The notes under the pieces: generated by a model
What the model was told of the DNA's origin: nothing
Database searches by the model: none
The model's input: only the letters and a program-made list of their open reading frames with translations
Shown: positions 25,546-41,660 of the stretch, piece by piece
How positions within the stretch are numbered: position 1 is the first letter of the stretch
Layout of the letters: the number at the start of each line of letters is the position of its first letter
Assembly (NCBI RefSeq): GCF_029265375.1
Contig: NZ_JAJUJJ010000024.1
Coordinates: forward strand, 1-41,793
Source: Nesterenkonia sp.
Lineage (GTDB): Bacteria > Actinomycetota > Actinomycetes > Actinomycetales > Micrococcaceae
Direction: 5' to 3'
Length of the DNA: 41,793 nucleotides
Position numbers and translations under genes: made by a program

Positions 25546-27036
25546 ATGAGCCCAGAAGCCGTCGGATTCGCAATCGTCCTGCTGACAGCAGTCATGCTGG
25601 CCGGGAAGTACCTGCGGGTGAAAGTGCCCCTGGCGCAGAAGCTGCTGCTGCCCAGCGCCATCCTGGCCGGGTTCATCGGGCTGATCATCGGCCCGGAGGT
25701 GATGGGCCACTTGGCCGGACCGCTGAACTGGAGCTGGCTGGAGTCCGGCGGACTGCTCACCGAGGAGATCTACGAGGTCTGGGGTGCGCTGCCGGGGCTG
25801 CTGATCTCCATCGTCTTCGCCACCCTGTTCCTGGGCGCCCGCATCCCCTCACCGGTGCGGGTGGCCAAACTGGTGGGTCCCCAGCTGTCCATCGGGCTGG
25901 CCTACGGCTCCGGGCAGTACTTGGTGGGACTGCTGCTGGGAGTGCTGGTGCTCGCCCCGCTCTTCGGGGTGGAGGCCTACTTCGGGGCGCTGCTGGAGAT
26001 CGCCTTCGAAGGCGGCCACGGAACCGCCGGAGGCATGGCGCCGGCCTTTGAGGAGATGGGCATCCCTGAGGCCACGGACCTGGCGCTGGCCATGGCCACC
26101 GTCGGGCTGGTATTCGGCATCATCATCGGCATTGCGGTGATCAACTGGGGAGTGCGCACCGGACGCACCAAAGTCATCCGCAATATCACCGAGCAGTCCC
26201 CGGCCGAGCTGCGCGGACTGTACTCCGATGATGACACTGTCTACACCGGGCGGATGACCGCTCGCCCAGGATCCATTGAGCCGCTGACCCTGCATGTGGC
26301 CGTGGTCGGACTGGCCGTGATCCTGGGATGGCTGCTGCTGGAGGGCCTGGTCTGGGTGGAGGACCAGCTCTGGGGCCAGCCGGATTCGCTGTGGCCCGGC
26401 CAGGACGGGGAGGGCCTGACCCTGCTGGGCTATGTGCCGCTGTTCCCGCTGGCGATGATCGGCGGGGTGATCATCCAGTTCGTACTGGACCGCACCGGCA
26501 AGTCCACGCTGCTGGACCACGAAACCATGAAGCGCATCCAAGGCCTGGCGCTGGACATCCTGATTGTGGCGGCACTGTCGACGATCTCGCTGGCCGTGAT
26601 CGCCGAGTACTGGGAGACCTTCCTGGTGCTCTCGGTGGCCGGCGTGGTCTTCTGCACGTTCATGCTGCTCTACTTCACCCCGCGGGTGATCCCCGAGTTC
26701 TGGCTGGAGCGCGGCATCGCCGACTTCGGTCAGTCCATGGGGGTCACCGCCACCGGTCTGGCGCTGCTGCGGGTGGCCGACCCGGAGGAGAAGTCCCCGG
26801 CCATGGAGGCCTTCGGCTATAAGCAGCTGTTCTTCGAACCGATCTTCGGCGGAGGGCTGATCACGGCGCTGTCCATCCCGGTGATTGTCGCCACCGGCAG
26901 CGTGTACTGGGTGCTGGTTCCCATGGCGGTGCTGTTCGTGGCCGCCCTGGCTGCCGGAATGATCTACCACCGCGGGGTCAAGTCCGGCCGCTGGCGGGAT
27001 CCCTCATGGGAGGCGGCCCAGGATATGGCGGTGTAA
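25546..27036 (+). CDS. gltS: GltS-family sodium:glutamate symporter
   Basis: A 496-residue ESS-family transporter, longer than the roughly 400 residues of E. coli GltS mainly because of a central insert. Ten or more hydrophobic segments are visible. The diagnostic re-entrant loop EGGHGTAGGMAPAF is near residue 155-170. The second half begins near PLFPLAMIGGVIIQ. The cytoplasmic central insert (about residues 210-250) is charged. GGAGGAAA lies 8 nt before the ATG. Substrate is probably glutamate by family, but divergent members may carry other carboxylates. The downstream radical SAM gene begins 45 bp after its stop. Confidence 0.85.
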   Translation: MSPEAVGFAIVLLTAVMLAGKYLRVKVPLAQKLLLPSAILAGFIGLIIGPEVMGHLAGPLNWSWLESGGLLTEEIYEVWGALPGLLISIVFATLFLGARIPSPVRVAKLVGPQLSIGLAYGSGQYLVGLLLGVLVLAPLFGVEAYFGALLEIAFEGGHGTAGGMAPAFEEMGIPEATDLALAMATVGLVFGIIIGIAVINWGVRTGRTKVIRNITEQSPAELRGLYSDDDTVYTGRMTARPGSIEPLTLHVAVVGLAVILGWLLLEGLVWVEDQLWGQPDSLWPGQDGEGLTLLGYVPLFPLAMIGGVIIQFVLDRTGKSTLLDHETMKRIQGLALDILIVAALSTISLAVIAEYWETFLVLSVAGVVFCTFMLLYFTPRVIPEFWLERGIADFGQSMGVTATGLALLRVADPEEKSPAMEAFGYKQLFFEPIFGGGLITALSIPVIVATGSVYWVLVPMAVLFVAALAAGMIYHRGVKSGRWRDPSWEAAQDMAV

Positions 27037-27056
27037 GCCGGACCCTTGCCCAGTGT

Positions 27057-27072
27057 TCGAATATGTGTTCGA
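27057..27072 (+). promoter_or_regulatory. LexA-type SOS box
   Basis: TCGAAT-ATGT-GTTCGA matches the mycobacterial/actinobacterial LexA operator TCGAAC-N4-GTTCGA with one change (T for C at the sixth base). It sits 8 bp before the GTG start of the radical SAM gene, in the 44-bp gap after gltS, where LexA could block that promoter. Confidence 0.65.
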
Positions 27073-27080
27073 ATGCAGGT

Positions 27081-28640
27081 GTGAGATGGGAAGGGCAGAA
27101 GATCGACGACGGCGCCGCTGCGGCGCTGCTGCCCATGAAGGGTCTGCTGCGCAGTGTGCGCACCCCCGAGTTCGAGGGAGTGACCTTCCATGAGGTGGCG
27201 GCCAAGAGCGCGCTGAACAAGGTGCCCGCGCAGTCCAATATGCCCTTCCGCTGGACCATCAACCCCATGCGCGGCTGCCTCCACCAGTGCCGCTACTGCC
27301 TGAGCCCTGAGACGCTGATCCTGATGGCCGATCGCCGGCAGAAGCCGCTGCGTGAGGTGAAGGTGGGCGAGAAAGTGGTCGGCACTCGGCTCGAGGGTCG
27401 CTATCGGTACTTCGTGGAGTCGGAGGTCGAGGCGTTCTGGCACACGCGCAAGCCGGCCTACCGGGTGAGCCTGGCTGACGGGACGGAGATCGTCGCCAGC
27501 GGCGATCACCGCTTCCTCACCGAGCGGGGCTGGAAGTCTGTGGCGCCGGGAGGCGGCAGTGACGTGGCCTCCGTGCTCACCGTGCAGGACCAGCTGACCG
27601 GCCCGGAGAAGATCGACGACGACGCTCGCACCGGTCTGCTCGGCAGCGTCGCCACATCCCGGGCCGGGCTGCAGGTGGCCGCGGTCGAGCCGCTGGGCAG
27701 CGAGCAGGACCTCATCGACATCACCACCTCCACTGGTGACTTCATCGCCAACGGAGTTGTCAGTCACAACTGCTTCGCCCGGCGCACGCATGAGTATCTG
27801 GATCTCGACGCCGGGCGGGACTTCGACACCCAGATCGTGGTGAAGACGAACGTGGCCGAGGTGCTGCGCGCCGAGGTCTCCAAGCCCAGCTGGGGCCGGG
27901 AGCACGTCGCGCTGGGCACCAACACAGACCCCTACCAGCGGGCCGAAGGGCGCTACCGGCTCATGCCCGGGATCATCCAGGCGCTCGCAGACTCCGGCAC
28001 ACCCTTCTCCATCCTGACCAAAGGTCCGCTTCTGACCCGTGACCTCCCACTGCTGCAGCAGGCCGCCCAGCAGGTCGAGGTCTCGGTGGGAGTCTCGCTG
28101 GCCATCATGGACCCCGAACTGCAGCAGCAGGTGGAGCCCGGCACCCCCACCGCGGCGGCGCGGCTGAAGCTGGTCCGCGCCCTGGCCGATGCCGGGCTCA
28201 GCGTCAACGTGCTGGCCATGCCGATCCTGCCCTGGCTCACCGACTCAGCAGAACACCTGGACCTGCTCCACGCCCGGCTGAAGGAAGCCGGAGCGAACTG
28301 GGTCTCCACCGGGGCCCTGCATCTTCGCCCGGGAGCCCGCGAGTGGTACATGCAGTGGCTGCAGGAGCAGTACCCACACCTGGTGCCCAAGTACCGGCGG
28401 CTCTACCGCGGAGCCAAAGGAGGCTTCACCAGCTATGCGCACAAGGACTACACCTCGTGGCTGGCCGACCAGGCGGCCCAGGCCAGGCGTCGCCACGGAT
28501 TCATCCGCCGGGAGAACCCCCGGTGGCGTGCACGCAACAACCCCGAGGGTCGCGACGGCGGCGACCAGCCAGAGCAGCAGGAGCCGCAGCTGCCCGGACT
28601 GGAGAGCATCACCCCGGGCCAGCAGCCCGCACTGTTCTGA
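27081..28640 (+). CDS. Rv2578c-family radical SAM protein containing a mini-intein
   Basis: A 519-codon gene that encodes a 361-residue radical SAM protein split by a 158-residue intein. The extein has MRWEGQKIDDGA at its start, C66-LHQ-C70-RY as the first two iron-sulfur cysteines, and the third cysteine (Cys231) after the intein, followed by FARRTHEYLDLD. Splicing rebuilds the CxxxCxxC cluster motif. Later parts show TNTDPYQRAEGRYRLMPG and SILTKGP, typical of the family. The start GTG 27081 matches the N-terminus of Rv2578c; an in-frame start at 27006 would lie inside gltS. An SOS box precedes it. Substrate unknown; a DNA-damage link is suggested by the operator. The C-terminus is a disordered Gln/Pro-rich tail. 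Confidence 0.88.
   Translation: MRWEGQKIDDGAAAALLPMKGLLRSVRTPEFEGVTFHEVAAKSALNKVPAQSNMPFRWTINPMRGCLHQCRYCLSPETLILMADRRQKPLREVKVGEKVVGTRLEGRYRYFVESEVEAFWHTRKPAYRVSLADGTEIVASGDHRFLTERGWKSVAPGGGSDVASVLTVQDQLTGPEKIDDDARTGLLGSVATSRAGLQVAAVEPLGSEQDLIDITTSTGDFIANGVVSHNCFARRTHEYLDLDAGRDFDTQIVVKTNVAEVLRAEVSKPSWGREHVALGTNTDPYQRAEGRYRLMPGIIQALADSGTPFSILTKGPLLTRDLPLLQQAAQQVEVSVGVSLAIMDPELQQQVEPGTPTAAARLKLVRALADAGLSVNVLAMPILPWLTDSAEHLDLLHARLKEAGANWVSTGALHLRPGAREWYMQWLQEQYPHLVPKYRRLYRGAKGGFTSYAHKDYTSWLADQAAQARRRHGFIRRENPRWRARNNPEGRDGGDQPEQQEPQLPGLESITPGQQPALF
27297..27770 (+). other. Mini-intein within the radical SAM gene
   Basis: A 158-residue splicing element without a homing endonuclease. It begins with Cys1 (CLSPETLILMADRR, block A), carries block B as DGTEIVASGDHRFL with its histidine, and ends with block F DLIDITTSTGDFIANG and block G VVSHN, followed by Cys+1 of the extein. 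The residues needed for splicing (Cys1, block B His, terminal His-Asn, Cys+1) are all present, so it should splice. It lies between the second and third iron-sulfur cysteines of the host protein, directly before the third. Confidence 0.9.
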
Positions 28641-30947: not shown

Positions 30948-31023
30948 GCCTCCGTAGCTCAGGGGATAGAGCGTTGGTTTCCGGTACCAAAGGCCGCAGG
31001 TTCGAATCCTGCCGGGGGCACCA
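30948..31023 (+). tRNA. tRNA-Arg (anticodon CCG)
   Basis: A complete 76-base cloverleaf with encoded CCA. The acceptor stem GCCTCCG pairs with CGGGGGC (31013-31019), including one T-G pair. The anticodon stem-loop TTGGT-TTCCGGT-ACCAA gives CCG. TTCGAATCC is the T loop. Its 3' part is the insertion point of the integrative element to the right, and the recombinase gene runs antisense through it. TAACCT at 30906-30911 may be its -10 element. Confidence 0.97.
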
Positions 31024-32668
31024 GTTGGTCCTTGTTCAAACCTGCGACGTTCGCGGTTTGATCTCCACTCTGGTCTCCACCAGCCTGCTTGCGGCGCAGC
31101 GCGGTGGACTGGACCTCGGGGTTGAACAGGATGTCGAAGGGCTCGCCGGCCTGCCCGTCCACGACATCGGCTTCTGTGATGTAGAGCTTGTCGAAGAACG
31201 CCTGGTTGGCTGTGCGGCGCAGCGAGTCATCGATGCTCGTGTAGATCGCGTGGCAGTCACCAGCCAGGGCCAGGCAGTCCTCCAGATGGGCCTGGGCCTG
31301 CTCGTACTCCAGGGTGCCGGCCTCGATCTGTGCTTCCAGGAACGCCAGGCGTTTAGCGACCCGCTCCTGCTCAGTCTTCAATAACCCCAACGGCACAGCT
31401 CCGGCATAGTGAGCCTGAAGTAGCTTGGTCCGCTCCGCGATCAGGTCCTGTCGTTCTCTGGTGTAGGCCTCCTGCTGCTGCTTGGTGGTGGCCTGTAACC
31501 GGTCGAACTCCGAAGTCACCAGTTCCCGCAGTGCGGTCACGATGTGCTCGGGTATCTGGACCTGTTTGTAGTAGTTCTCGACCGCGCGCTCCACATCCGG
31601 GATGTACATGGCCTTCTGCTCACAGTTGGTGCGCTTGGAGTGCCGCCCGGCACACATGAAGTAGGGATAGATCACGCCCTGGCGGTTCTTGGCTTTGGTC
31701 ATGATCAGCCGGGACCCGCACTGGCCGCAGTACAGGCCGCCTTTGAGGTAGTGGTCATGGACCTGGGTCTTCTCTCCCGAGGCCCGGTGGGAGGACAGCA
31801 CTGCCTGGACCCGGTACCAAATCTCGGTGGGCACCAGCGGTTCGTGCATGCCTTCATAGACCGCGCCCCGGAAGGACACGTTGCCCTTGTAGTACGGGTT
31901 CGACAGCATCCGGTGCACCGCAGAGAGGGAGGGAGCCTTCTTCGGGCGCTTCGGTGTTGGCACGGTGGTCAGGCCACGGTCGATGAGTTCATCACGCAGG
32001 CTGGCGGTGGAGTAGTTGCCGCTGGCGTAGGCGTCGAAGGCCCACTTCACGATGGGGGCTCGTTCTGGATCGAGGTCAACGGTGCGCATCTCCCGGCCCA
32101 GCTCATCCTTCTTCACCACGTTGAGGTAGCCCATGGGAGCCTTGCCATTGGTGCCTCCGGTGATGGCCTTCTGGCTCATGCCCTTGGAGACTTCATTGGC
32201 CAGGTTCCGGGAGTAGAACTCCGCAATCGAGGACATGATGCCGTGCAGCAACATCCCCGAGGGCGTCTCGTCGATGTTCTCGGTTGCCGAGACCAGCAGA
32301 ACACCGGCTTCCTGCAACGCCAGATGGATAGCGACATCGTCAGAGCGGTTCCGCGCCAGACGATCCACCTTGTGCACGATGCAGTAGGCCACCTGATGAG
32401 CTTTGATGTACTCGATCATCCGCATCAGCTCGGGCCGGTCGGCCTTGCGGGCGGACTCACCGGCATCCACGAACTCTTCTACGATGATGGCGTTCAGATC
32501 GCGGGCCTTGCGCAGGTTGGCTTCCCGCTGAGCCGGGATCGAGAACCCCTCATCCCGGCCGCCCTTGGAGGCTTGCTCCTTGGTGGAGACTCGCAGGTAA
32601 GAGACCGCGAGGGTGGTGGTCTCGCCCAGCTGCTGAAGACTAGAGATGTCGGGCGCTGTGGTGGTCAT
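30959..32668 (-). CDS. Large serine recombinase (integrase)
   Basis: A 569-residue serine site-specific recombinase. The N-terminal catalytic domain has Ser28 in SYLRVST and the VDRLARNR helix (about 115-122). The recombinase domain follows (about 170-300, with YYKGNVSFRG). A zinc ribbon with YCGQCGSRL and later Cys residues lies near 315-355, then a coiled-coil motif (about 385-480). The C-terminal 20 or so residues are the antisense of tRNA-Arg, and the stop codon is inside the tRNA D-arm. AAGGAA lies 7-8 nt before the ATG at 32668. It most likely catalysed the insertion beside the tRNA. An in-frame start at 32767 is less likely because it would translate the dyad-rich leader. Confidence 0.9.
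   Translation of the reverse strand: MTTTAPDISSLQQLGETTTLAVSYLRVSTKEQASKGGRDEGFSIPAQREANLRKARDLNAIIVEEFVDAGESARKADRPELMRMIEYIKAHQVAYCIVHKVDRLARNRSDDVAIHLALQEAGVLLVSATENIDETPSGMLLHGIMSSIAEFYSRNLANEVSKGMSQKAITGGTNGKAPMGYLNVVKKDELGREMRTVDLDPERAPIVKWAFDAYASGNYSTASLRDELIDRGLTTVPTPKRPKKAPSLSAVHRMLSNPYYKGNVSFRGAVYEGMHEPLVPTEIWYRVQAVLSSHRASGEKTQVHDHYLKGGLYCGQCGSRLIMTKAKNRQGVIYPYFMCAGRHSKRTNCEQKAMYIPDVERAVENYYKQVQIPEHIVTALRELVTSEFDRLQATTKQQQEAYTRERQDLIAERTKLLQAHYAGAVPLGLLKTEQERVAKRLAFLEAQIEAGTLEYEQAQAHLEDCLALAGDCHAIYTSIDDSLRRTANQAFFDKLYITEADVVDGQAGEPFDILFNPEVQSTALRRKQAGGDQSGDQTANVAGLNKDQLVPPAGFEPAAFGTGNQRSIP
31036..31061. repeat. Dyad next to the tRNA 3' end, possible attachment-site arm or terminator
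   Basis: TCAAACC-t-GCGA pairs with TCGC-GGTTTGA around a 3-base CGT loop: eleven base pairs interrupted by one bulged T. It starts 12 bp after the tRNA CCA and lies inside the recombinase reading frame. It could be the recombinase binding site in attL or the end of the tRNA transcript. No T-run follows. Confidence 0.5.
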
Positions 32669-32763
32669 TGTCGTGTTTCCTTCCCCGTTACGGGCGGGGC
32701 CAACACGAGCAGCACCATGAGATGCCGCTGGTGCGGTGCGACTCGTAAACGGGAAACACGACA
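32669..32763 (-). promoter_or_regulatory. Foldable leader of the recombinase gene that can hide its ribosome binding site
   Basis: In the mRNA direction the leader starts with TGTCGTGTTTCC (32763-32752) and ends with its exact complement GGAAACACGACA (32680-32669) immediately before the ATG. The second arm contains the AAGGAA ribosome binding site. Between the arms are nested pairs ACGAG/CTCGT and GCACCA/TGGTGC, and a separate CCCCG/CGGGG hairpin abuts the ribosome binding site. Pairing would shut off translation. A DNA-level role (recombinase or regulator binding) is equally possible. Confidence 0.5.
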
Positions 32764-32854
32764 TCAACAGGCTGGGTGGAGCCTGCCGAAGTAAGCCCTA
32801 TGGGCCAGACATGACTGCGCACCGACAGCCGAACGGTGTCCGGCTGCTGGCTTC

Positions 32855-33070
32855 TTACATGTCAGATTCTACTCCGGGCTCCGTCTCCGCCTCTACTGCG
32901 GTGTCGGAGTCATCGCCGGTCTGCTGGTCAGTGTCGGTAGGGCGGGCACGGTCCAGGGCCATGCCGATGAACACTTGGGCCAGCCGGTGCAGGTCCGGGG
33001 CCTCCCGCGGCTGGGCCTCCACCCGCAGGTCCCGCATCCGGTCAGGCAGACGGTCTGAGGTTTGGCTCAT
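32855..33070 (-). CDS. Hypothetical protein of the integrative element
   Basis: A 71-residue protein that is not recognised. Its first half is basic (SDRLPDRMRDLRVEAQPRE) with a short amphipathic helix (HRLAQVFIGMALDRARP). The second half is very acidic. No signal or membrane segment is present. The ATG shares one base with the stop codon of the upstream gene (TGATG), so it is co-translated with the DUF4913-like protein, and its conserved position beside SSB and TraG suggests a plasmid-transfer or maintenance accessory. Confidence 0.5.
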   Translation of the reverse strand: MSQTSDRLPDRMRDLRVEAQPREAPDLHRLAQVFIGMALDRARPTDTDQQTGDDSDTAVEAETEPGVESDM

Positions 33071-33681
33071 CACCGGCCTCCTGGGTGGTCATCGAGGTGG
33101 CGGAAGAACTCGTCTTCGGCTCGTCGTCGCTCTGCGACTTGGGCCATTACGAAGTCCACGAACTCGCTTTCGCGGTCTTCGATGGTGAGGTCTTCTACCG
33201 GTGGGGTGGGGTCTTCTCCGGGCCAGGAGGTCTGTCGGGTGGGTCGGTCCCTGTCTAGCCGGGTGCCGGAGGCTGCGACCCACTCGCGGAGCCGGGCTCT
33301 GGCGTCGGCGAAGTCCCGGTGCCAGCCAATTGGGGCTGAGGCGTTCTGTTCGGGGTCGTAGGCTCCGAGCCAGTGCAGGTGTAGGGCGGAGAGTTCCCAG
33401 AGCAGTTCGGGGTGGTGGTGCCAGAAGGGTGGGATCACACTGGCTGGCAGCCCGTAGGTCCGCCGTAGCCAGTGGACCCATTTGTTTAGTTCCAGCCATT
33501 CGGCTTCCAGGTCATCGGCGGAGAGCAGGTTCCAGTTGATCGGTTTCGGCGGTTCAGGGAGGTCACCGCCGGGGTCGAACCCTGGCTCGAAGCCTGGGTC
33601 CGGTTCGTCATAGGCCGTGTCATAGGTGTCGTGGGCCAGGTAGTCCTCCGGCCCCGGGTTGTGTGGGGTGTGCTGGTTCAT
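33070..33681 (-). CDS. DUF4913-like protein of actinobacterial mobile elements
   Basis: A 203-residue protein. A disordered acidic N-terminus (about 45 residues) precedes a helical domain, with ADDLEAEWLELNKWVHWLRRTYGL, the IPPFWHHHPELLWELSALHLHWLGAYD stretch (W-x(n)-H-x(n)-L-W pattern) and PIGWHRDFADARARLREWV. I recognise this from DUF4913 proteins that recur next to TraG-type genes on actinobacterial conjugative elements. The role is unknown. It sits 21 bp after SSB and is co-translated with the next small gene. Confidence 0.7.
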   Translation of the reverse strand: MNQHTPHNPGPEDYLAHDTYDTAYDEPDPGFEPGFDPGGDLPEPPKPINWNLLSADDLEAEWLELNKWVHWLRRTYGLPASVIPPFWHHHPELLWELSALHLHWLGAYDPEQNASAPIGWHRDFADARARLREWVAASGTRLDRDRPTRQTSWPGEDPTPPVEDLTIEDRESEFVDFVMAQVAERRRAEDEFFRHLDDHPGGR

Positions 33682-33702
33682 GGCTCTGGCTCCTGGCCGG
33701 TG

Positions 33703-34149
33703 TCAGAGGCTGAGGTTGGGCGGTTCGGGCTGCGGGCTCTGCCGCTGGGGTGCCTCGAATCCGGCGGCGTCGCGCTCGAAGCTGCGGCGGGGTGTGCGGT
33801 CCACCTCGTAGCGGGTGCGGGCCATGTCATGACCGATCCGGCGGGCCACGAACTCCTCACCGGGAGCGGTTAGCCCGTTGGCGTCGGTGTACTCGTATTC
33901 GCGCACGTAGCCTTCGGCGATGATCTTGTCGCCCTTGGCCAGGCGTTCATGGCCCTGTTCGGCGGCGGCTTTGAAGGCCACCAGGTTGTGGAAGGTGGTG
34001 TCCTTCTGTGTGAACGACCCATCGGCTTCGCGCTGGTAGTGCTCCTTGCCGACCTTGACGAACAGGCGTGGGTCACCGTTTTCGGTGTAGCTCAGCTGCG
34101 GTGCTGAGGCGATGAAACCGGAGAATGACTGTTGGGTATGGATCGCCAT
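33703..34149 (-). CDS. ssb: Single-stranded DNA-binding protein
   Basis: A 148-residue SSB with one OB-fold (residues about 5-105): FSGFIASAPQLSYTENG, RLFVKVG, TFHNLVAFKAAAEQGHERLAKGDKIIAEGYVREYEY. The C-terminal part is proline- and glutamine-rich and ends in PPNLSL rather than the acidic DDDIPF tip used to recruit partners. This is typical of mobile-element SSBs, which protect transferred single strands. AAGGAG lies 10 nt before the ATG. It lies between the coupling protein and the DUF4913-like gene. Confidence 0.85.
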   Translation of the reverse strand: MAIHTQQSFSGFIASAPQLSYTENGDPRLFVKVGKEHYQREADGSFTQKDTTFHNLVAFKAAAEQGHERLAKGDKIIAEGYVREYEYTDANGLTAPGEEFVARRIGHDMARTRYEVDRTPRRSFERDAAGFEAPQRQSPQPEPPNLSL

Positions 34150-34172
34150 GACCAGGGCTCCTTATCTGTCAC

Positions 34173-34196
34173 GGCCACCGCCTGGTGCAGGTGGCC
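34173..34196 (-). repeat. Hairpin between traG and ssb
   Basis: GGCCACC and GGTGGCC form a perfect 7-bp stem with a 10-nt loop in the 79-bp gap, upstream of the ssb ribosome binding site in the transcript. No T-run follows, so it is more likely an mRNA processing or attenuation feature than a terminator. Confidence 0.35.
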
Positions 34197-34228
34197 TCTG
34201 CCAGACAGGTGCACCCAGCACCCCGGCG

Positions 34229-36022
34229 CTAGGTACGCGGGTGGTGTTGGAGCATGGCTTCGATCTGCTCCCGGTCGGCCTTCAACTCAGCGGCCTCTGG
34301 TCGTTCGGTCCATCGGCGCAGGTCGGTGATGATCGGCGGTGCGGTCCGCAGCAGGGTGATCCCGGTGCCGAAGGGCAGAGTCCTGATCCGGTCTGGTGGC
34401 AGTACCGAGACACGGCGGACGGATCGCTGGTTGGAGCGTGTGCCGTGGTCCCCGATGGTGGTCGAATCGGTGTACTCGTCACGTTCTCCGATGAGGGTGG
34501 AGAGGTCTTGGAGGTCCCGGGAGTTCGATGCCCCACCGAGGATGATTTTGACGATCGCGGCATCCCAGATCGCCCCGGCCTGGTTCTCTGACCACTTCTC
34601 CCGCGCCTGCGCCAGCGACTGAAGTACCGGCAGGGTCGTGATCCCGGTGCCGCCGCCTTCAGCCATCAACGTCGGCAGGCTGGGCAGGGGTGCGAGGTTG
34701 CCGATTTCATCCAGCGCCAACAACAGCGGCGGGTCGAGCCGTGCTCCTGGTGATCGGGCGGCCATACGCCGGGCTGTTTCGACCAGGTCTTCCACGAACG
34801 CCGCCACCAGGGAGGCTGAGGCTCCGGCTCCTGCGCCGGTGGCCAACAGGAACAGGCTGCCCCGGTCGCCGATGAACCGCTCGGGGTCGAAGTCCTCCCC
34901 AGCCCTGGGTGAGACCGCATCCAACACCCGAGGATCAGCCAACGCTGACAGGGCCAGGGAGACGCCCTGCCAGATGGAATCCCGGGTCTTCGGGTCAGCT
35001 TCCAGCATCGAGGCCAGCGAGTCATCCCAGCCGGTCGCCGCCCTCGGGGTGCTGGACAGAATGGTGACCGCCTCGGCGGCAGCTGAGGGGTCCAGGGTCC
35101 AGCGGAACAGCTCAGCCGGTGACCGGTGATCCAACGCAGCCGCATGGAGCAGGGATTGGAGGGCGGTACGGGTCTTGCCTTCCCAGAACCCACCGGACTC
35201 GACCCCGCCAGCGGACATACCAGTCGCTGAAGCCAGCCCGGTAGCCCGTATCATCGCCGTCAGCGGGTCCTCACACCCCCGGATAGGTGACCAGCGCATC
35301 CCAGCCGGGATGCCCTCTCCCAGGTGTTGGGGGTCGAAGACCGCTACCGGTCCGATCTTCTCCCTCGCCCGCAACGTAGCGGTGAGGTTATCCGGCCGGG
35401 TAGACGTCGTCACCACCGCGCCGGGTGCATCCAGGATCGCGTTGATGACCACATGCAGGCCCTTACCAGAACGCGGTGGGCCAATCAGCAGAATCGAGTC
35501 CTCCACCGAAGCCCACACCTGCTTGCCCGCAGAGGTCCCCAGAAGGTAACCGACATCCTCGACCCGCGGCTTCGCCAGAGAAGGCCGCAGCGTCTCAGCC
35601 CGCCGCAACAGGGCCTTGGAAGTGGCGACTTTGGCAATATCGGCACTGGTGGCGGTGCCTGCCAGCCGATGCGGATCGGCTTGTTTCTGTTGACCCCAGC
35701 GGCGCACCCGCACCCACACCCAGGCACCGACCCCGGCCAGCCCGGCGAGCATCAACCCGGCAATGATCCAGTAGGCCACCGGATGTAGCCCCTCAGCTGC
35801 CAGCGCGGCGGAAGGATCACCAGGGCTGAACAGAACCCCCAGTCCGGCAGCCGGGCCAGCCTCCGGCAGGGATGCGCCGGTGACCCAAGCGGCGACAGTG
35901 CCAGCAACACGCAGGATCAACGCAATGCCCGCGGTGACCATGAGCAGGATGATCAGGGCGTTAGTGACCTCATCACCCATACCCCCGGCTTGGCGAGACC
36001 CCGGAGTGATGCCCCGGGTCAT
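34229..36022 (-). CDS. TraG/VirD4-type conjugation coupling protein
   Basis: A 597-residue membrane-anchored ATPase that would link the relaxosome to a type IV secretion channel. Two membrane segments (about residues 20-50 and 82-106) precede the ATPase domain, with Walker A GPPRSGKG at 181-188 and Walker B in LLLALDEIGNLAPLP near 424-438. The TraG/TraD C-terminal recognition domain follows. Length and layout are normal for actinobacterial integrative elements. It overlaps the upstream unknown gene by 4 bases (ATGA). No other secretion components lie in the window, so whether transfer is possible cannot be told. Confidence 0.85.
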   Translation of the reverse strand: MTRGITPGSRQAGGMGDEVTNALIILLMVTAGIALILRVAGTVAAWVTGASLPEAGPAAGLGVLFSPGDPSAALAAEGLHPVAYWIIAGLMLAGLAGVGAWVWVRVRRWGQQKQADPHRLAGTATSADIAKVATSKALLRRAETLRPSLAKPRVEDVGYLLGTSAGKQVWASVEDSILLIGPPRSGKGLHVVINAILDAPGAVVTTSTRPDNLTATLRAREKIGPVAVFDPQHLGEGIPAGMRWSPIRGCEDPLTAMIRATGLASATGMSAGGVESGGFWEGKTRTALQSLLHAAALDHRSPAELFRWTLDPSAAAEAVTILSSTPRAATGWDDSLASMLEADPKTRDSIWQGVSLALSALADPRVLDAVSPRAGEDFDPERFIGDRGSLFLLATGAGAGASASLVAAFVEDLVETARRMAARSPGARLDPPLLLALDEIGNLAPLPSLPTLMAEGGGTGITTLPVLQSLAQAREKWSENQAGAIWDAAIVKIILGGASNSRDLQDLSTLIGERDEYTDSTTIGDHGTRSNQRSVRRVSVLPPDRIRTLPFGTGITLLRTAPPIITDLRRWTERPEAAELKADREQIEAMLQHHPRT

Positions 36023-36588
36023 GGCAGCCGCCTCACCAGCGTGGTCCCCGAAGACCGGCCAAAGACCAACACCTCAGCACCAGCACGCAGATTCGCCTTC
36101 TGCCGCCGAGTCAGACGGACCTCAACCTCCCCGTCCTCATTGGCCGTGGTCTCGGTGACCACCGCAGCGATAGCCACGTCCTCACCGGGCAGGAACCCCT
36201 CACCCGAGACCGTAGCCTGCTTCCCGCTGGGCTTAGACCGTGCCGACTCTGGCTGTTCCTGCTCGGGGGCAGGCTCGGCCTGGGTGCGGCGGCGCGCGCG
36301 GATAATGTCAGTAAAAGTGGACCCGTCGGTTTCGTGGACCTCGATCCGCACCGTCCGAGTCCGGTCCCCAGTGACCGTGTCCAGAAGCTCACCGAACCGG
36401 GCACGAGACCATGCCCCGTCTTCGGGTGCGGGGAAGTCCTCGCCATCCACGGTGACCGCCAGGGTCCCGGTGGGTTCGGTGACGGTGATGACCACATGAG
36501 GCAGCACCGCCGGAACATCCGACTCCTGGTCTAACGGCTTGGTCTTCTTGGTTCGGCGCGAAGGGTGTCTGGTGTTGTCGTGGCTCAT
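36019..36588 (-). CDS. Hypothetical protein preceding the coupling protein
   Basis: A 189-residue soluble protein, unrecognised. A basic N-terminal tail (RRTKKTKPL) leads into a compact beta-rich domain with VVITVTEPTGTLAVTVDGEDF and TRTVRIEVHETDGSTFTDII. A disordered Glu/Pro-rich linker follows, then a second beta domain with EGFLPGEDVAIAAVV and a turn of ANLRAGAEVLVFG. The start at 36588 (ATG AGC) is used rather than one 21 bases upstream. It is co-translated with the coupling protein. Its conserved position makes a transfer-related role likely, but nothing more can be said. Confidence 0.55.
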   Translation of the reverse strand: MSHDNTRHPSRRTKKTKPLDQESDVPAVLPHVVITVTEPTGTLAVTVDGEDFPAPEDGAWSRARFGELLDTVTGDRTRTVRIEVHETDGSTFTDIIRARRRTQAEPAPEQEQPESARSKPSGKQATVSGEGFLPGEDVAIAAVVTETTANEDGEVEVRLTRRQKANLRAGAEVLVFGRSSGTTLVRRLP

Positions 36589-36650
36589 GCCAACCAGGTG
36601 CGCCTGCAACCTCCCGCGTACTGAAGGTAGCCTTCTGGTTAGGTCACTAC

Positions 36651-36680
36651 TTGCTGACTAGTCATCGTTCGCTGTATGGT
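36651..36680 (+). promoter_or_regulatory. Promoter and operator of the cmtR-ATPase operon
   Basis: TTGCTG (36651-36656) and TATGGT (36675-36680) lie 18 bp apart and the ATG of the regulator starts 6 nt after the -10. The perfect palindrome TGACTAGTCA (36655-36664) overlaps the -35, and the half-site TGCTGACTA (36652-36660) is repeated at 36688-36696 over the start codon. An ArsR-type repressor bound here would block RNA polymerase. Confidence 0.65.
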
Positions 36681-36686
36681 CATTGC

Positions 36687-37049
36687 ATGCTGACTATTGC
36701 TTCTCGTCTTGATGTGATGAACCGGCTGGGCCGCGCTATGGCCGACCCCACCCGGTCCCGGATTCTGCTGGCCCTGCTGGATGCTCCCGGCTATCCAGCC
36801 AAGCTTGCCCGTGACCTGGAGCTGACGCGGACGAACGTGTCGAATCATCTGGCGTGCTTGCGGGATTGCGGGATCGTGGTGGCTGAGCCGGAGGGCCGCC
36901 AGACCCGCTATGAGATCGCTGACCCTCACCTGTCAAGGGCGCTGAACGCCTTGGTGGAGACCACCCTGGCAGTCGATGAGGGTGCGGAGTGTCTTGACCC
37001 GGTGTGCCCGGAGGGGTGCTGCGCTGGCGGAGAGCAGGTGCAGCGATGA
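36687..37049 (+). CDS. cmtR: CmtR-type ArsR-family metal sensor
   Basis: A 120-residue winged-helix repressor. It carries LGRAMADPTRSRILLALLDAP and the recognition segment LTRTNVSNHLACLRDCG. The metal ligands known for Mycobacterium tuberculosis CmtR, Cys57, Cys61 and Cys102, occur at exactly the same residue numbers here, which points to Cd(II)/Pb(II) sensing. The last 15 residues add four more cysteines (DPVCPEGCCAGG has three) that could extend metal binding. The ATG at 36687 lies 6 nt after a -10, giving a leaderless message. The ATPase gene overlaps its stop by 4 bases, so the sensor controls the pump it is translated with. Confidence 0.88.
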   Translation: MLTIASRLDVMNRLGRAMADPTRSRILLALLDAPGYPAKLARDLELTRTNVSNHLACLRDCGIVVAEPEGRQTRYEIADPHLSRALNALVETTLAVDEGAECLDPVCPEGCCAGGEQVQR

Positions 37050-39043
37050 GCGTGGATGCCTGCGGGTGTGCTTCCCCCCGTGAGGACACGGCTTCTGCCG
37101 AGACCACTAAAGAACCTCGGTGGTGGGGGGATCGTCGTGTCCTGATTCCGCTGGGCTCGGGGCTGTTGCTGGGCACCGGGTGGGTGTTGGAGTGGTCTGG
37201 ACTGGCCGACCAGGCCCCGCTTTCGACTGTGACGCTGGCGGTGTTCTGGGTCAGCCTGTTGTTCGGGGCGTCTCAGTTCGTTCCTGGCGCTTTGCGGGCG
37301 CTGGTGGTGCGTCGCCGCCTGGGGATCGGATTGTTGATGACGATCAGCGCCACTGGAGCGGTTGCACTGGGTTACATCGAAGAAGCTGCAGCCCTGGCCT
37401 TTCTCTATTCCATTGCAGAGGCTTTGGAAGATCGGGCGATGGACAAAGCCCGCTCCGGGCTGCGTTCTCTGCTGAACCTGCTGCCAGCCAGCGCCACCAT
37501 CGTTGACGAGGCTGGCGATCAGCGGCAGGTCCCTGCCTCTACTCTGGTGCCGGGTCAGCTGATCCGGGTTGCAGCTGGGGAGCGCCTAGCCACGGACGGT
37601 GTGGTCCGTACCGGGCGTTCGGCCCTGGATATTTCAGCGATCACTGGTGAGTCGATTCCGGTGGAGGCTGGCCCTGGTGATGAGGTGTTGGCCGGGTCGA
37701 TCAATACCACCGGGGTTTTGGAGATCGAAGCCACGGCACCAGGCTCAGACAACTCCCTGACCACAGTGGTCCAGTTGGTCGAGCAGGCTCAGGCGGAGAA
37801 GGGTGAACGTGCTCGGCTGGCTGATCGGATCGCCCGTCCACTGGTGCCCGGTGTGCTCCTGCTGGCGATTCTGATCGCGGCGCTGGGTTCACTCTTTGGG
37901 GACCCCATGGAGTGGGTCACCCGAGCGATCATCGTTCTGGTGGCCGCCTCACCATGTGCGTTGGCGATCTCGGTACCGATCACCGTGGTCTCTGCCATCG
38001 GCGGCGGCAGCAAGCACGGGGTGATCGTCAAGTCCGGTGCAGCTTTCGAGCAACTGGGATCAGTAGGCCACGTGGCCTTCGATAAGACAGGCACACTGAC
38101 CCGTAACCGCCCCACCGTCAATGCCGTGTTGACTGTCCCCGGGTATACCGAGCTGCAGGTGCTGGACTGGGCGGCAGCACTGGAAGCTCACAGTACGCAC
38201 CCCCTTGCGGCAGCTATTACCCATGCGACAGCTGGTGTCCCGAAGGCCACCGAAATCACTGAGCACCCCGGACAGGGCATCACCGGAGTTATCGGGGCCA
38301 GCCGGATCGCTGTGGGCAGTCCCCGGTGGCTTGATGCCGGGCCGCTGGCCGAAGAGGTCACAGAACTGGAACGGCAAGGCAACACCGTTGTGATCACCCA
38401 CCACAACGGGGAGGCAGTCGGGGCTGTCGGTGTGCGGGACGAACTGCGCGAAGAAGCCGTAGAAGCGATCCAGCAGCTTGCCCGTGCCGGGGTCAAGGTC
38501 ACCATGCTCACCGGCGACAACACACGCACCGCCCATGCTCTAGCGGCTGAAGCCGGGATCACGGATGTACGTGCAGAACTCCGCCCAGAAGACAAAGCTG
38601 CCGCCATCACCGAACTGCGGGCAGGTAACCGGGTGGCAATGATTGGTGACGGCATCAACGACGCCCCAGCATTGGCCGCCGCAGATATAGGTATCGCCAT
38701 GGGAGCCACTGGCTCCGACGCCGCTGTGGAATCAGCCGATGTGGCCTTCACCGGCGAAGACATCCGCCTGATCCCTCAAGCCCTGGCACACGCCCGGCGA
38801 GGACGGATGATCATCAACCAGAACATCATCCTCTCCTTGACCCTGATCGCGGTGTTACCGCTGTTGGCACTCTTCGGCGTGATCGGCCTGGCCGCCGTCG
38901 TCCTCGTCCACGAACTCGCTGAAGTCGTCATCATCCTTAACGGCCTGCGCGCGGCTCGCACCCGCAACTCTCGTGACCCCTCATCACGTCCTGTTGTCTC
39001 CGCCAAGGCAGGAGCAGGCTCGGACCATCAAGTACAGCCATGA
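37046..39043 (+). CDS. P1B-type heavy-metal-transporting ATPase with SPC motif
   Basis: A 665-residue P-type ATPase. It lacks an N-terminal metal-binding domain; its short tail has DACGCAS. Key motifs are TGES near residue 200, SPC at 302-304 in the metal-binding helix (in place of the CPC of Cd/Cu/Zn pumps), phosphorylated Asp346 in DKTGTLT, TGDN near 489, and GDGINDAPALA near 533. The last membrane helix has HELAEVVIILN. SPC pumps are typically P1B-4 enzymes that export Co, Fe, Zn or Cd. Coupled with a CmtR sensor, cadmium/lead or cobalt export is likely. It overlaps the next gene by 4 bases. Confidence 0.88.
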   Translation: MSVDACGCASPREDTASAETTKEPRWWGDRRVLIPLGSGLLLGTGWVLEWSGLADQAPLSTVTLAVFWVSLLFGASQFVPGALRALVVRRRLGIGLLMTISATGAVALGYIEEAAALAFLYSIAEALEDRAMDKARSGLRSLLNLLPASATIVDEAGDQRQVPASTLVPGQLIRVAAGERLATDGVVRTGRSALDISAITGESIPVEAGPGDEVLAGSINTTGVLEIEATAPGSDNSLTTVVQLVEQAQAEKGERARLADRIARPLVPGVLLLAILIAALGSLFGDPMEWVTRAIIVLVAASPCALAISVPITVVSAIGGGSKHGVIVKSGAAFEQLGSVGHVAFDKTGTLTRNRPTVNAVLTVPGYTELQVLDWAAALEAHSTHPLAAAITHATAGVPKATEITEHPGQGITGVIGASRIAVGSPRWLDAGPLAEEVTELERQGNTVVITHHNGEAVGAVGVRDELREEAVEAIQQLARAGVKVTMLTGDNTRTAHALAAEAGITDVRAELRPEDKAAAITELRAGNRVAMIGDGINDAPALAAADIGIAMGATGSDAAVESADVAFTGEDIRLIPQALAHARRGRMIINQNIILSLTLIAVLPLLALFGVIGLAAVVLVHELAEVVIILNGLRAARTRNSRDPSSRPVVSAKAGAGSDHQVQP

Positions 39044-40104
39044 GTCCAGCAACGTACGAACATCTCGATGTGGCAGTTATCGGTGCGGGCCAAGCGGGTC
39101 TTGCACTCGGGTACTACCTGGCCAAAGCAGGGATGAGCTTCCAGCTACTCGAGGCGACCGACAAAGTAGGCACCTCATGGGCACACCGCTGGGACTCTCT
39201 GCGCTTGTTCACCCCTGTGCAGTACAACTCGCTGCCTGGATTCGACTTCCCTGGTGAACCGGGGACACACCCTGGCAAAGATGAGGTGGCCGACTACCTA
39301 GCCACATATGCCCAACGGCACGCCCTACCCGTTCACCTCGACACCCGCGTGACGAGATTGAACGGAGCGGCAGGGGATTTTCGGCTGTGCTTCGCAAGCA
39401 GGGAGCCCCTGAGGGCGAGAGCTGTTGTCGTCGCTACAGGGGCTTTCGGGTCACCCTTCGTGCCCAGTCTGGCCAACGGGCTAGACCCGCAGGTCTTGCA
39501 GGTCCACTCCGAGGACTATCGAAACCCGAGTCAGCTACGCGGTGACAACGTCGCTGTCGTCGGGGGTGGAAACTCTGGCTTCCAAATCGCGTTGGAGCTC
39601 GCCAACCATGGGAAGAGAGTTTCCCTGTCCGAAGGTGCACGTCTGCGTAGCTTGCCGCAGCGTCTCCTAGGGCGTGATCTGTTCTGGTGGTTGACGACCA
39701 CAGGTCTCATCGGCGCTGCTGGAAGTTCACGCCTGGGTCATCGATTGCGGGCGAATGAGCCCATCATCGGGACCAGCCGTCGAAATCTCCGCAGGGCCGC
39801 GGTAAGTTTCCGACCAAGAACCGTGGAGGCACACACGGATCGTCTCGCTTTCGAAGACGGCATGGATATCAAGGTAGACACAGTTGTATGGGCCACGGGA
39901 TATCGGCATGATGACACCTGGATCGAGATCCCCGGTGCGCTCAACGAACACGGCGTCCTTACCAACCAAGACGGCGTCACTCCTGTAGAGGGGCTCTACA
40001 CCTTGGGGCGGCCGTGGCAGCGCGACCGAGGGTCTTCATTGCTCGGCTATGTCCGCCGAGACGCTGAGAGGCTGGCCCATCGCCTCGTGCGACAGGCTTC
40101 GTAA
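39040..40104 (+). CDS. FAD/NAD(P)-dependent monooxygenase-like protein (ArsO/CzcO type)
   Basis: A 354-residue two-dinucleotide-domain flavoprotein. FAD binding shows as VIGAGQAGLALGYYL near residues 13-27 and ATGAFGSPFVPS near 132. The NAD(P) site is VAVVGGGNSGFQIALELA near 169-186. The protein resembles the ArsO and CzcO groups found in arsenic and metal gene clusters, whose reactions are mostly unproved. It overlaps the ATPase gene by 4 bases (ATGA) and so belongs to the cmtR operon. Its codons are less GC-rich than those of the ATPase, suggesting separate recruitment. Substrate unknown. Confidence 0.78.
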   Translation: MSPATYEHLDVAVIGAGQAGLALGYYLAKAGMSFQLLEATDKVGTSWAHRWDSLRLFTPVQYNSLPGFDFPGEPGTHPGKDEVADYLATYAQRHALPVHLDTRVTRLNGAAGDFRLCFASREPLRARAVVVATGAFGSPFVPSLANGLDPQVLQVHSEDYRNPSQLRGDNVAVVGGGNSGFQIALELANHGKRVSLSEGARLRSLPQRLLGRDLFWWLTTTGLIGAAGSSRLGHRLRANEPIIGTSRRNLRRAAVSFRPRTVEAHTDRLAFEDGMDIKVDTVVWATGYRHDDTWIEIPGALNEHGVLTNQDGVTPVEGLYTLGRPWQRDRGSSLLGYVRRDAERLAHRLVRQAS

Positions 40105-40177
40105 CGGCGACGTTCATTCGGCTACTGGTAGTTGCGAGGGTTGTAATTGACCGTCGGTGCAGGGTGGGATCAGCATC

Positions 40178-40209
40178 TTGACCTTCTAGTTGACTTGAAG
40201 GTTTACGCT
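40178..40209 (+). promoter_or_regulatory. MerR-type promoter with operator
   Basis: TTGACC (40178-40183) and TACGCT (40204-40209) are separated by 20 bp, longer than normal, as required for activation by MerR-family proteins that untwist the spacer. The dyad ACCTTC-N10-GAAGGT (40181-40202) fills it and extends inward as AGT/ACT with one mismatch. The downstream merR-like gene (41259) is the likely regulator. Confidence 0.75.
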
Positions 40210-40275
40210 GAGTCGTCGTCCCTAAGAGGCGACCCCGGGAGTCAAACCGCCATGCGCTGCGAGGAGAGCAACTAG

Positions 40276-41262
40276 ATGAACCTGGTCGAGCGCCTGCAGA
40301 GCGTCTTCGTTGCAGCCGCCGCACTGACTGGCCTTGCCGTGGGGTTGCTGACTCCGGTCGGGGAGGTCGGCGAGTATGTGGTGATCCCGGCCCTGCTGGT
40401 GATGCTGGTGGCGATCTTCGTGCAGGTGGACGCCACCCAAGTCAGTGAAGTCCGCCGAGCGAAGTCGCTGGTGGCCGCCAGTCTGGTGCTGAACTACCTG
40501 TTCACCCCCGCTGTGGCCTGGGCACTGGGAGCCGGGCTGCTCGGTGACCAGCCGGACCTGCGGATCGGACTGCTGCTGTTGCTGATGACCCCGTGTACTG
40601 ACTGGTACCTGGTCTTCACTGGTGTGGCCAAGGGCCACACCGGGATCGCAACGGCGTTGTTGCCGGTGAACCTGGTGCTGCAACTGTTGTTGTTGCCGGT
40701 CTATGTGTTGTTGCTCGGCGGTGAGGCCGCTATGGTTGATCCTGGCACGCTGGCTGAGGCGGTGCTGCTGATGCTGCTCACCCCGCTGGTGGCTGCCTTC
40801 CTCATCCGCTGGGTCACCCGTCGGACCAAAGGTGCCCAGTGGCAGGAACAGACGCTGAATCGTTTGGCTGGGCGGCTGGTGGTGCCGCTGCTGTGTCTGG
40901 CCGTGTTCGCGATGTTCGCCTGGCAAGCCCCCGTTGTGGCCGAGCATGGCACCGAACTTGTCTTACTGCTGCCGGCCCTAGCCGGGTTCTTCATCATCCT
41001 GCCCCTGGTGGCTACCGTAGTCTCCAAGCTGATGGGGCTGCCCGGAGCCCAGCGGGTGACTCTGACGATGGTCACCACCGCCAGAAACTCACCGATCGCG
41101 TTGGGCATCGCTGTCGCTGCGTTCCCTGACCGGCCGCTGATCGCCGTGGCCCTGGTGGTCGGCCCGCTGATCGAACTGCCGGTCCTAGCCGTGCTGGCTC
41201 AAATCGTCCGTTATAAAGAGCCTGGGCTCCAGGGCTCCGCTGACCGGAGGATAGAAGGATGA
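40276..41262 (+). CDS. BASS/ACR3-like transporter (putative arsenite or metalloid efflux)
   Basis: A 328-residue membrane protein with about ten hydrophobic helices, in the bile acid/arsenite/riboflavin (BASS) fold. Its TPCTDWYLVFTGVAKGHTG segment (Cys107) corresponds to the fourth helix of ACR3 arsenite exporters, where a conserved cysteine is needed. A second family mark is TTARNSPIALGIAVAAFP near 269-286. Length is slightly below that of typical ACR3. GAGGAG lies about 9 nt before the ATG. It is driven by a MerR-type promoter and overlaps the MerR gene by 4 bases, whereas ACR3 genes are usually under ArsR. The substrate (arsenite, antimonite or something else) is inferred. Confidence 0.8.
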   Translation: MNLVERLQSVFVAAAALTGLAVGLLTPVGEVGEYVVIPALLVMLVAIFVQVDATQVSEVRRAKSLVAASLVLNYLFTPAVAWALGAGLLGDQPDLRIGLLLLLMTPCTDWYLVFTGVAKGHTGIATALLPVNLVLQLLLLPVYVLLLGGEAAMVDPGTLAEAVLLMLLTPLVAAFLIRWVTRRTKGAQWQEQTLNRLAGRLVVPLLCLAVFAMFAWQAPVVAEHGTELVLLLPALAGFFIILPLVATVVSKLMGLPGAQRVTLTMVTTARNSPIALGIAVAAFPDRPLIAVALVVGPLIELPVLAVLAQIVRYKEPGLQGSADRRIEG

Positions 41263-41660
41263 GGATTTCAGAGGTCACAGCACGGACCGGGGTTCCAGCC
41301 ACCACGCTGCGCTACTACGAAGACCTCGGTCTGATCACCTCCCAGCGTGGCCCCAACGGGTACCGGGACTACGACCAGACCGTGATTGAACAGCTGGAGT
41401 TCATCGCCACCGCCAAGAAGCTCGACATGGGCCTTGAAGAAGTACGATGGCTCTCCCAAGTCACCTCCACCGGGACATGTACCGCAGTCAGAGAGAACCT
41501 GCGCCCAGTGCTTGCTGACCGGCTGGCTCACGTCGAAGAGAACACCCAACGGTTGACCCGCATGCGCGCCCTGATTACCGAAGCACTCGACCACGTAGTC
41601 TCCTGCCCCGACACCGACCAGCCGTGCAAATCAGAGTGCGCCTTCCAATCGCGGGGCTGA
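41259..41660 (+). CDS. MerR-family metal-responsive activator
   Basis: A 133-residue regulator with an N-terminal MerR winged helix: MRISEVTARTGVPATTLRYYEDLGLI at residues 1-26 (split: VPATTLRYYEDLGLI), then RGPNGYRDY. A helical dimer region (about 80-112) follows. Cysteines lie at 74, 116, 123 and 127; the latter three form a CPDTDQPC-KSEC cluster after the dimer helix, as in metal-sensing members (CueR, ZntR, PbrR). Metal identity is not evident. GGAGG stands 8 nt before the ATG. It is co-translated with the transporter and probably activates the operon through the 20-bp spacer promoter at 40178-40209. Confidence 0.85.
   Translation: MRISEVTARTGVPATTLRYYEDLGLITSQRGPNGYRDYDQTVIEQLEFIATAKKLDMGLEEVRWLSQVTSTGTCTAVRENLRPVLADRLAHVEENTQRLTRMRALITEALDHVVSCPDTDQPCKSECAFQSRG

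Follow-up and report, generated by a model that had tools for sequence, protein, structure and literature searches.

Intein-bearing members of the Rv2578c family of radical SAM proteins are already annotated, as the original prediction had stated, and are covered by an NCBIfam model of their own, NF038136 (‘intein-containing Rv2578c family radical SAM protein’). MoaA likewise belongs to the radical SAM enzymes, and most inteins begin with a cysteine, Cys1 being the usual intein nucleophile. Under oxidising conditions, splicing of the P. abyssi MoaA intein is prevented by a disulfide that joins N-extein Cys-3 to Cys1, according to the available parts of two reviews (PMC10663303, PMC3922620). 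The CX2C spacing of these two residues points to the third-cysteine site of the motif, where the MoaA intein would be placed by this reasoning; the accessible part of a further article (PMC3087415) names no intein in MoaA. The nucleophilic cysteine of DnaBi1, a DnaB intein of Mycobacterium smegmatis, is blocked by oxidation or zinc, as described in the available text of PMC6195587 and PMC7360933. The homing cycle of inteins has also been set out (PMC1654191, available part). No title on the intein considered here was found in a search of open-licence papers on Rv2578c, Nesterenkonia inteins or radical SAM inteins.

The locus described here lies in a window of 41,793 nucleotides (the whole stretch of DNA analysed) from a Nesterenkonia sp. 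and, judged from its sequence, holds a genuine mini-intein that is largely ordinary, i.e. a further member of the family that NCBI already models. The whole precursor scores over the cut-off of NF038136 and nothing essential separates it from the proteins of that model, the window allele being a mini-intein with its own breakpoint. It shares N-extein Cys-3 and Cys1 with the P. abyssi MoaA intein as the latter is presented in the available reviews, but that intein sits in another host family and another domain of life; the two are likened here by the positions of these cysteines. DnaBi1, in the text available, differs in belonging to class 3: its nucleophile, Cys118, and the partner of that residue, Cys48, both lie inside the intein, whereas the window intein has Cys1 only. 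As far as the available part of PMC1654191 goes, the locus resembles the described homing cycle in that empty, full and endonuclease-less alleles coexist in one genus, and no difference from that cycle was seen.

The precursor and its intein

The gene lies in an open frame on the + strand (27006-28640, from ATG 27006). ORF residue 27 aligns with position 2 of the NCBIfam profile, so that position 1 corresponds to GTG 27081, the probable start codon of the coding sequence; counted from there, the precursor has 519 aa and the spliced protein 361 aa. The whole precursor reaches 710.8 bits with NF038136 (curated cut-off 700), 497.4 bits with the intein-less Rv2578c model NF038135 (cut-off 430) and 48.6 bits with PF04055 Radical_SAM (cut-off 29.5). 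The features of the Rv2578c family, a radical SAM domain and the spliced motif CLHQCRYC (CX3CX2C), are both found. The parts of the precursor are as follows.

27081..28640, + strand: precursor coding sequence, Rv2578c-family radical SAM protein with intein (matches to NF038136 and NF038135)
27081..27296, + strand: N-extein, 72 aa, with the first two cluster cysteines (sequence reading)
27276..27278, + strand: Cys-7, first cysteine of CX3CX2C (sequence; Cys in 118/118 distinct inteins)
27288..27290, + strand: Cys-3, second cysteine of CX3CX2C, which may partner Cys1 in a disulfide or in metal binding (sequence; Cys in 118/118)
27297..27770, + strand: mini-intein, 158 aa, no endonuclease, Cys1 as its single cysteine (sequence; the profile of its relatives matches solved inteins)
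27297..27299, + strand: Cys1, splicing nucleophile and third cysteine of CX3CX2C in the precursor (sequence; 118/118)
27498..27509, + strand: block B, Ser68-Gly-Asp-His71, where the canonical motif has Thr (alignment and counts)
27717..27719, + strand: block F Asp141 (invariant in 26/26 aligned inteins)
27765..27770, + strand: block G His157-Asn158 (invariant in 26/26 aligned inteins)
27771..27773, + strand: Cys+1, third cluster cysteine of the spliced enzyme (sequence)
27771..28640, + strand: C-extein, beginning with Cys+1 (sequence reading; PF04055 match)

The insert is in frame between CLHQCRY and CFARR and ends with His-Asn before Cys+1, the precursor reading ...RGC-LHQ-C-RY, then C1 LSPETL...VVSH-N, then C+1 FARR.... 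The presence of a 158-aa mini-intein at 27297..27770, as originally predicted, is thus borne out by its frame, Cys1, His-Asn, Cys+1 and the NF038136 match, and the loss of the homing endonuclease is confirmed as well: the window allele contains no LAGLIDADG endonuclease domain, one that congeneric full-length alleles do carry. With the 710.8-bit match and an insert at the same codon with the same ends in 48/48 and 80/80 further-described loci (see below), the window insert is far beyond chance. General intein models recover it weakly. Pfam Intein_splicing (PF14890) gives 33.9 bits, just below its cut-off of 35.8. No other place in the genome reaches E 0.01 with this model, and the insert stays below the cut-off in that search too. 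A search of solved structures returned remote intein matches and none that was close; a profile of 26 relatives matches nine distinct solved intein sequences, including gp41-1 and DnaB (E 5.8e-08 to 7.6e-04).

Of the features of a class 1 intein, Cys1, Asp141, His157, Asn158 and Cys+1 are present. The claim that all splicing residues are there holds for these and for His71 but not for the first residue of block B, which reads Ser-Gly-Asp-His and not Thr-x-x-His, the His being kept and Ser replacing Thr.

It had also been predicted that the CxxxCxxC cluster could not form until splicing. This is not borne out by the sequence, and the idea of a motif missing before splicing was rejected, as the precursor holds an intact C-LHQ-C-RY-C1 by way of the intein's own Cys1. 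The motif CLHQCRYC reads in both forms, with Cys1 as its third cysteine in the precursor and Cys+1 after splicing, so that splicing would swap the third cysteine of the motif, Cys1 giving way to Cys+1. The window precursor has four cysteines in all (residues 66, 70, 73, which is Cys1, and 231, which is Cys+1), every one of them at the splice site. This is not general, as the first 285 C-extein residues are free of any further cysteine in only 20 of 118. Within the intein itself, a second cysteine is absent from 53 of 84 distinct mini-inteins, the other 31 carrying one to three. Internal disulfide control of the window intein was set aside, there being no second cysteine in it.

Distribution and history of the alleles

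The genus search covered 30 congeneric genomes, the window's own included. An intact gene was found in 28; one further genome (G028, 82% complete) gave no match, and in another (G015, loci L029 and L030) the gene is broken, its matches being split and its sequence containing one TAG, and the site looks empty. As that genome is only 62% complete, the break may be an assembly error. The 28 intact genes comprise 13 empty alleles, nine with a mini-intein (158-188 aa) and six with an intein of 348-352 aa, and all 15 filled loci share one insertion codon, Cys1 and HN|C. Seven of these 15 intein proteins are identical to ones from Nesterenkonia records (N. aurantiaca, N. cremea, N. alkaliphila, N. 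sandarakina and three that give no species). Among the inteins compared, the window intein has no close relative, its best match showing about 65% identity over shared columns and 71% over its first 102 residues.

Beyond the genus, a phylum sample of 396 genomes gave a host-family match in 174, over cut-off in 45. Among the matches listed, 33 loci besides the window's own span >100 codons more than the aligned model, and all 33 of these large inserts are inteins at the same codon. In one of them (L122) the host-gene match is split, probably by a frameshift, with the intein still at that codon. A further full-length allele from the family sample (G431) has the same site, Cys1, His-Asn and Cys+1. 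When named genomes were scanned with the intein alignment, at least 561 relatives emerged from at least 597 pattern matches, and the best 80 of these relatives all share the insertion site (80/80). By record title the best 80 are mostly Actinomycetota, plus one Bacillus record whose label is unverified. Among the 80 are also metagenome bins labelled Betaproteobacteria, Omnitrophota and Deltaproteobacteria (L154, L191 and L207, labels likewise unverified), with this intein at the same site. A record titled Ruania rhizosphaerae (L137) carries a Nesterenkonia-type allele (NPTRGCLHQCVY) whose intein groups with Nesterenkonia, which may reflect either transfer or a mislabelled genome.

Residues were counted over a pool of 48 + 80 alleles, which is not a random sample; ten of the 128 proteins are repeats, leaving 118 distinct inteins. 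Cys-7, Cys-3, Cys1, Cys+1 and His-Asn each occur in 118/118, a count in which His-Asn is partly presupposed, as the reading of alleles required the junction HN-C-F/Y-A-R together with CX3CX2C and the 80-locus scan used patterns from the C-terminal end of the intein, without Cys1. With those patterns no locus was lost, the 15 + 33 loci with large inserts and the 80 relatives all being retained. Tyr-1 is present in 116/118. The first residue of block B is Ser in 115 inteins, Gly in three and Thr in none, and Ser-x-x-His is thus a family-wide active-site variant that would be worth a kinetic look. As to length, 84/118 are below 250 aa (143-199) and 34/118 measure 288-355 aa. Among these 34 distinct full-length alleles, both LAGLIDADG patterns are found in 25, the second only in four, the first only in two and neither in three; PF14528 LAGLIDADG_3 scores over its cut-off in five of six scanned full-length alleles and below it in L099.

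The alignment indicates that the breakpoints of endonuclease deletion differ among the mini-inteins. The 188-aa allele L004 retains an endonuclease tail, and the N-terminal part of the window allele ends elsewhere than in the group of 164-172 aa, i.e. at a deletion breakpoint of its own. Near sisters are found in different states, such as L027 (empty) and L028 (mini), or L012 (mini) and L014 (full). An extein tree was built from the 28 congeneric genes and seven others; it has four long end branches, and 11 of its 32 inner branches are open. On this tree the empty and filled states change eight times, with at least five changes forced by well supported branches, and a tree of the 118 inteins gives 12 changes between mini and full, five of them forced; these are counts of state changes in which gain and loss are not distinguished. 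The empty label is more clustered on the extein tree than in all but six of 500 shuffles, and the full label is not clustered. In the same tree of 118 inteins, made by a quick method, the 16 Nesterenkonia-type rows fall on one side of a branch with support 94.

Recent homing might leave a co-conversion tract, and none was evident in the five pairs compared. For L027 and L028, DNA identity is 95 and 95% in the two 100-base blocks upstream of the site, against 93 and 89% in those downstream. Over 127 loci, 20 of 48 positions around the site are conserved at ≥95%; none of the 20 is a third codon position, and this DNA conservation is what protein conservation alone would give. The dN/dS of the intein lies at 0.11-0.42, below 1, for the 10 of 13 chosen pairs in which dS could be estimated (dS being near saturation in the pair of the window allele and L016), and exceeds that of the extein in eight of those 10 pairs. 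Taken together, the pattern of empty, mini and full alleles fits a homing cycle in which the intein would have spread, lost its endonuclease and persisted as a splicing part with empty alleles alongside.

Phages and plasmids were also considered as possible carriers. On the left of the insert, the CX3CX2C host context is missing from all 16 viral-contig relatives read, out of 17; the seventeenth (L226) matched only the C-terminal part. These viral relatives were rejected as a control for the first residue: Cys stands there in all 16, but the count is uninformative, since one of the patterns used for the scan, two in number, already included this residue. No plasmid or phage record covers 80% of the precursor among the matches examined (20 of 37 for plasmids, 15 of 15 for phages), and 12 of the 15 phage matches extend little or not at all beyond the intein, the annotated ones lying in other genes. 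Distantly similar inteins of 26-31% identity occur in phage records (H22, H24-H32, H34 and H35) that include nine of Prevotella Lak phages, a terminase of an Oceanotoga phage and a helicase of a Lactobacillus phage.

Probable splicing and its possible control

It is probable that the window holds a class 1-type mini-intein of the Rv2578c family which splices, entered by homing, has lost its endonuclease and is essentially unregulated. The precursor would be translated in frame, and Cys1 would attack the Tyr-1/Cys1 bond in an N-S acyl shift assisted by block B and Asp141. The N-extein would then pass to Cys+1 by transesterification, Asn158 would cyclise and an S-N shift would follow, the spliced enzyme regaining CX3CX2C with Cys+1 as its third ligand. 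The order of these steps is taken from known class 1 chemistry, and, the window intein having no close relative among those compared, its activity is extrapolated from the family. Entry would likewise have been by homing: the element would spread by endonuclease-driven homing in relatives and have lost the endonuclease in the window's lineage, its splicing part probably being kept by purifying selection and the intein persisting because precise loss is rare. Fast and essentially unregulated splicing is considered most likely, since nothing in the data calls for more. Weighing against this reading are a block B without the canonical Thr, the lack of an evident co-conversion tract in the five pairs compared and the position of Cys-3 next to Cys1, which would allow a redox trap.

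In such a trap, oxidation would pair Cys-3 with Cys1 and block the first step, and reduction would free the pair and let an oxygen-sensitive enzyme mature. Both cysteines are present in 118/118 distinct inteins, at the same positions as in the MoaA trap described in the available parts of the reviews, and the cysteines of the window precursor are limited to Cys-7, Cys-3, Cys1 and Cys+1. A redox-sensitive start is therefore chemically plausible for the window intein. However, any Cys1 intein placed before the third cysteine of CX3CX2C must show the Cys-3/Cys1 pair, so that the geometry is forced, needs no selection and allows the trap without being evidence for it. The host enzyme uses Cys-3 as a cluster ligand, so that finding it here does not point to selection for a switch, and conservation of the pair was rejected as evidence for one, the host enzyme and splicing chemistry explaining both residues. 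Nesterenkonia belongs to the Micrococcaceae, mostly aerobic bacteria with a reducing cytoplasm, so that a trap at work in everyday conditions is not obvious, and empty and filled alleles occur in the genus in roughly equal numbers (13 and 15 of 28). Control of this kind is regarded as unlikely, if the best placed of the alternatives.

Competition by a metal or a cluster is judged improbable. Here Cys-7, Cys-3 and Cys1, perhaps with Cys+1, would bind zinc, iron or a [4Fe-4S] cluster and mask the nucleophile, so that splicing would report on metal or iron-sulfur status. The precursor CX3CX2C ending in Cys1 is intact in every filled allele read, and zinc on the nucleophilic cysteine of the mycobacterial DnaB intein blocks splicing, according to the available text of PMC7360933. 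Against this, Cys1 sits in the intein active site and may not reach a cluster on the host loop, and as the usual first residue of inteins it needs no such role. The fuller proposal, that Cys1 doubles as the third radical SAM ligand in the precursor and that metal or cluster occupancy gates splicing, making enzyme maturation depend on the state of iron-sulfur or metal supply, is held to be slightly more doubtful again. If true, such splicing would link an intein directly to iron-sulfur enzyme maturation.

A dead insert, with splicing lost and the gene reduced to a pseudogene, is very improbable. In its favour, the endonuclease is gone, block B has Ser for Thr and, in the available part of PMC12924846, a wild strain of Streptomyces carries an interrupted orthologue at no marked cost; against it, the ORF is intact, Cys1, His71, Asp141, His157, Asn158 and Cys+1 are present, dN/dS is below 1 in relatives and the Ser of block B is family-wide.

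The window precursor mostly offers a clean test case. All four of its cysteines lie at the splice site, so redox or metal control could be tested without confounding thiols, and one genus supplies empty, mini and endonuclease-bearing alleles of one host gene. The correction concerning Cys1 sharpens the idea behind the original prediction into a better test.

The Rv2578c family is sometimes annotated as SplB, and a damage-linked switch on enzyme maturation had been proposed. This finds no support in the available part of PMC12924846, which calls an SplB or DNA-repair role of the Rv2578c orthologue speculative, reports an RMSD above 4 Å and 17.6% identity to B. subtilis SplB, and describes a prophage that inactivates the gene in a wild Streptomyces strain with no significant effect on fitness. 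The same text places the attB of phage Samy in the Streptomyces Rv2578c gene.

Neighbourhood of the gene

Downstream of the intein gene by 2.3 kb, the region 30948-41660 of the window looks like an integrated element. It includes a serine recombinase (30959-32767), CcrB/XisF-like but below the cut-offs of those models, whose 3' end overlaps a tRNA-Arg (30948-31023). Further genes of this element encode a VirD4/TraG-like protein and then a heavy-metal P-type ATPase, the latter over cut-off, together with ArsO-like and ACR3-like proteins, both below cut-off.
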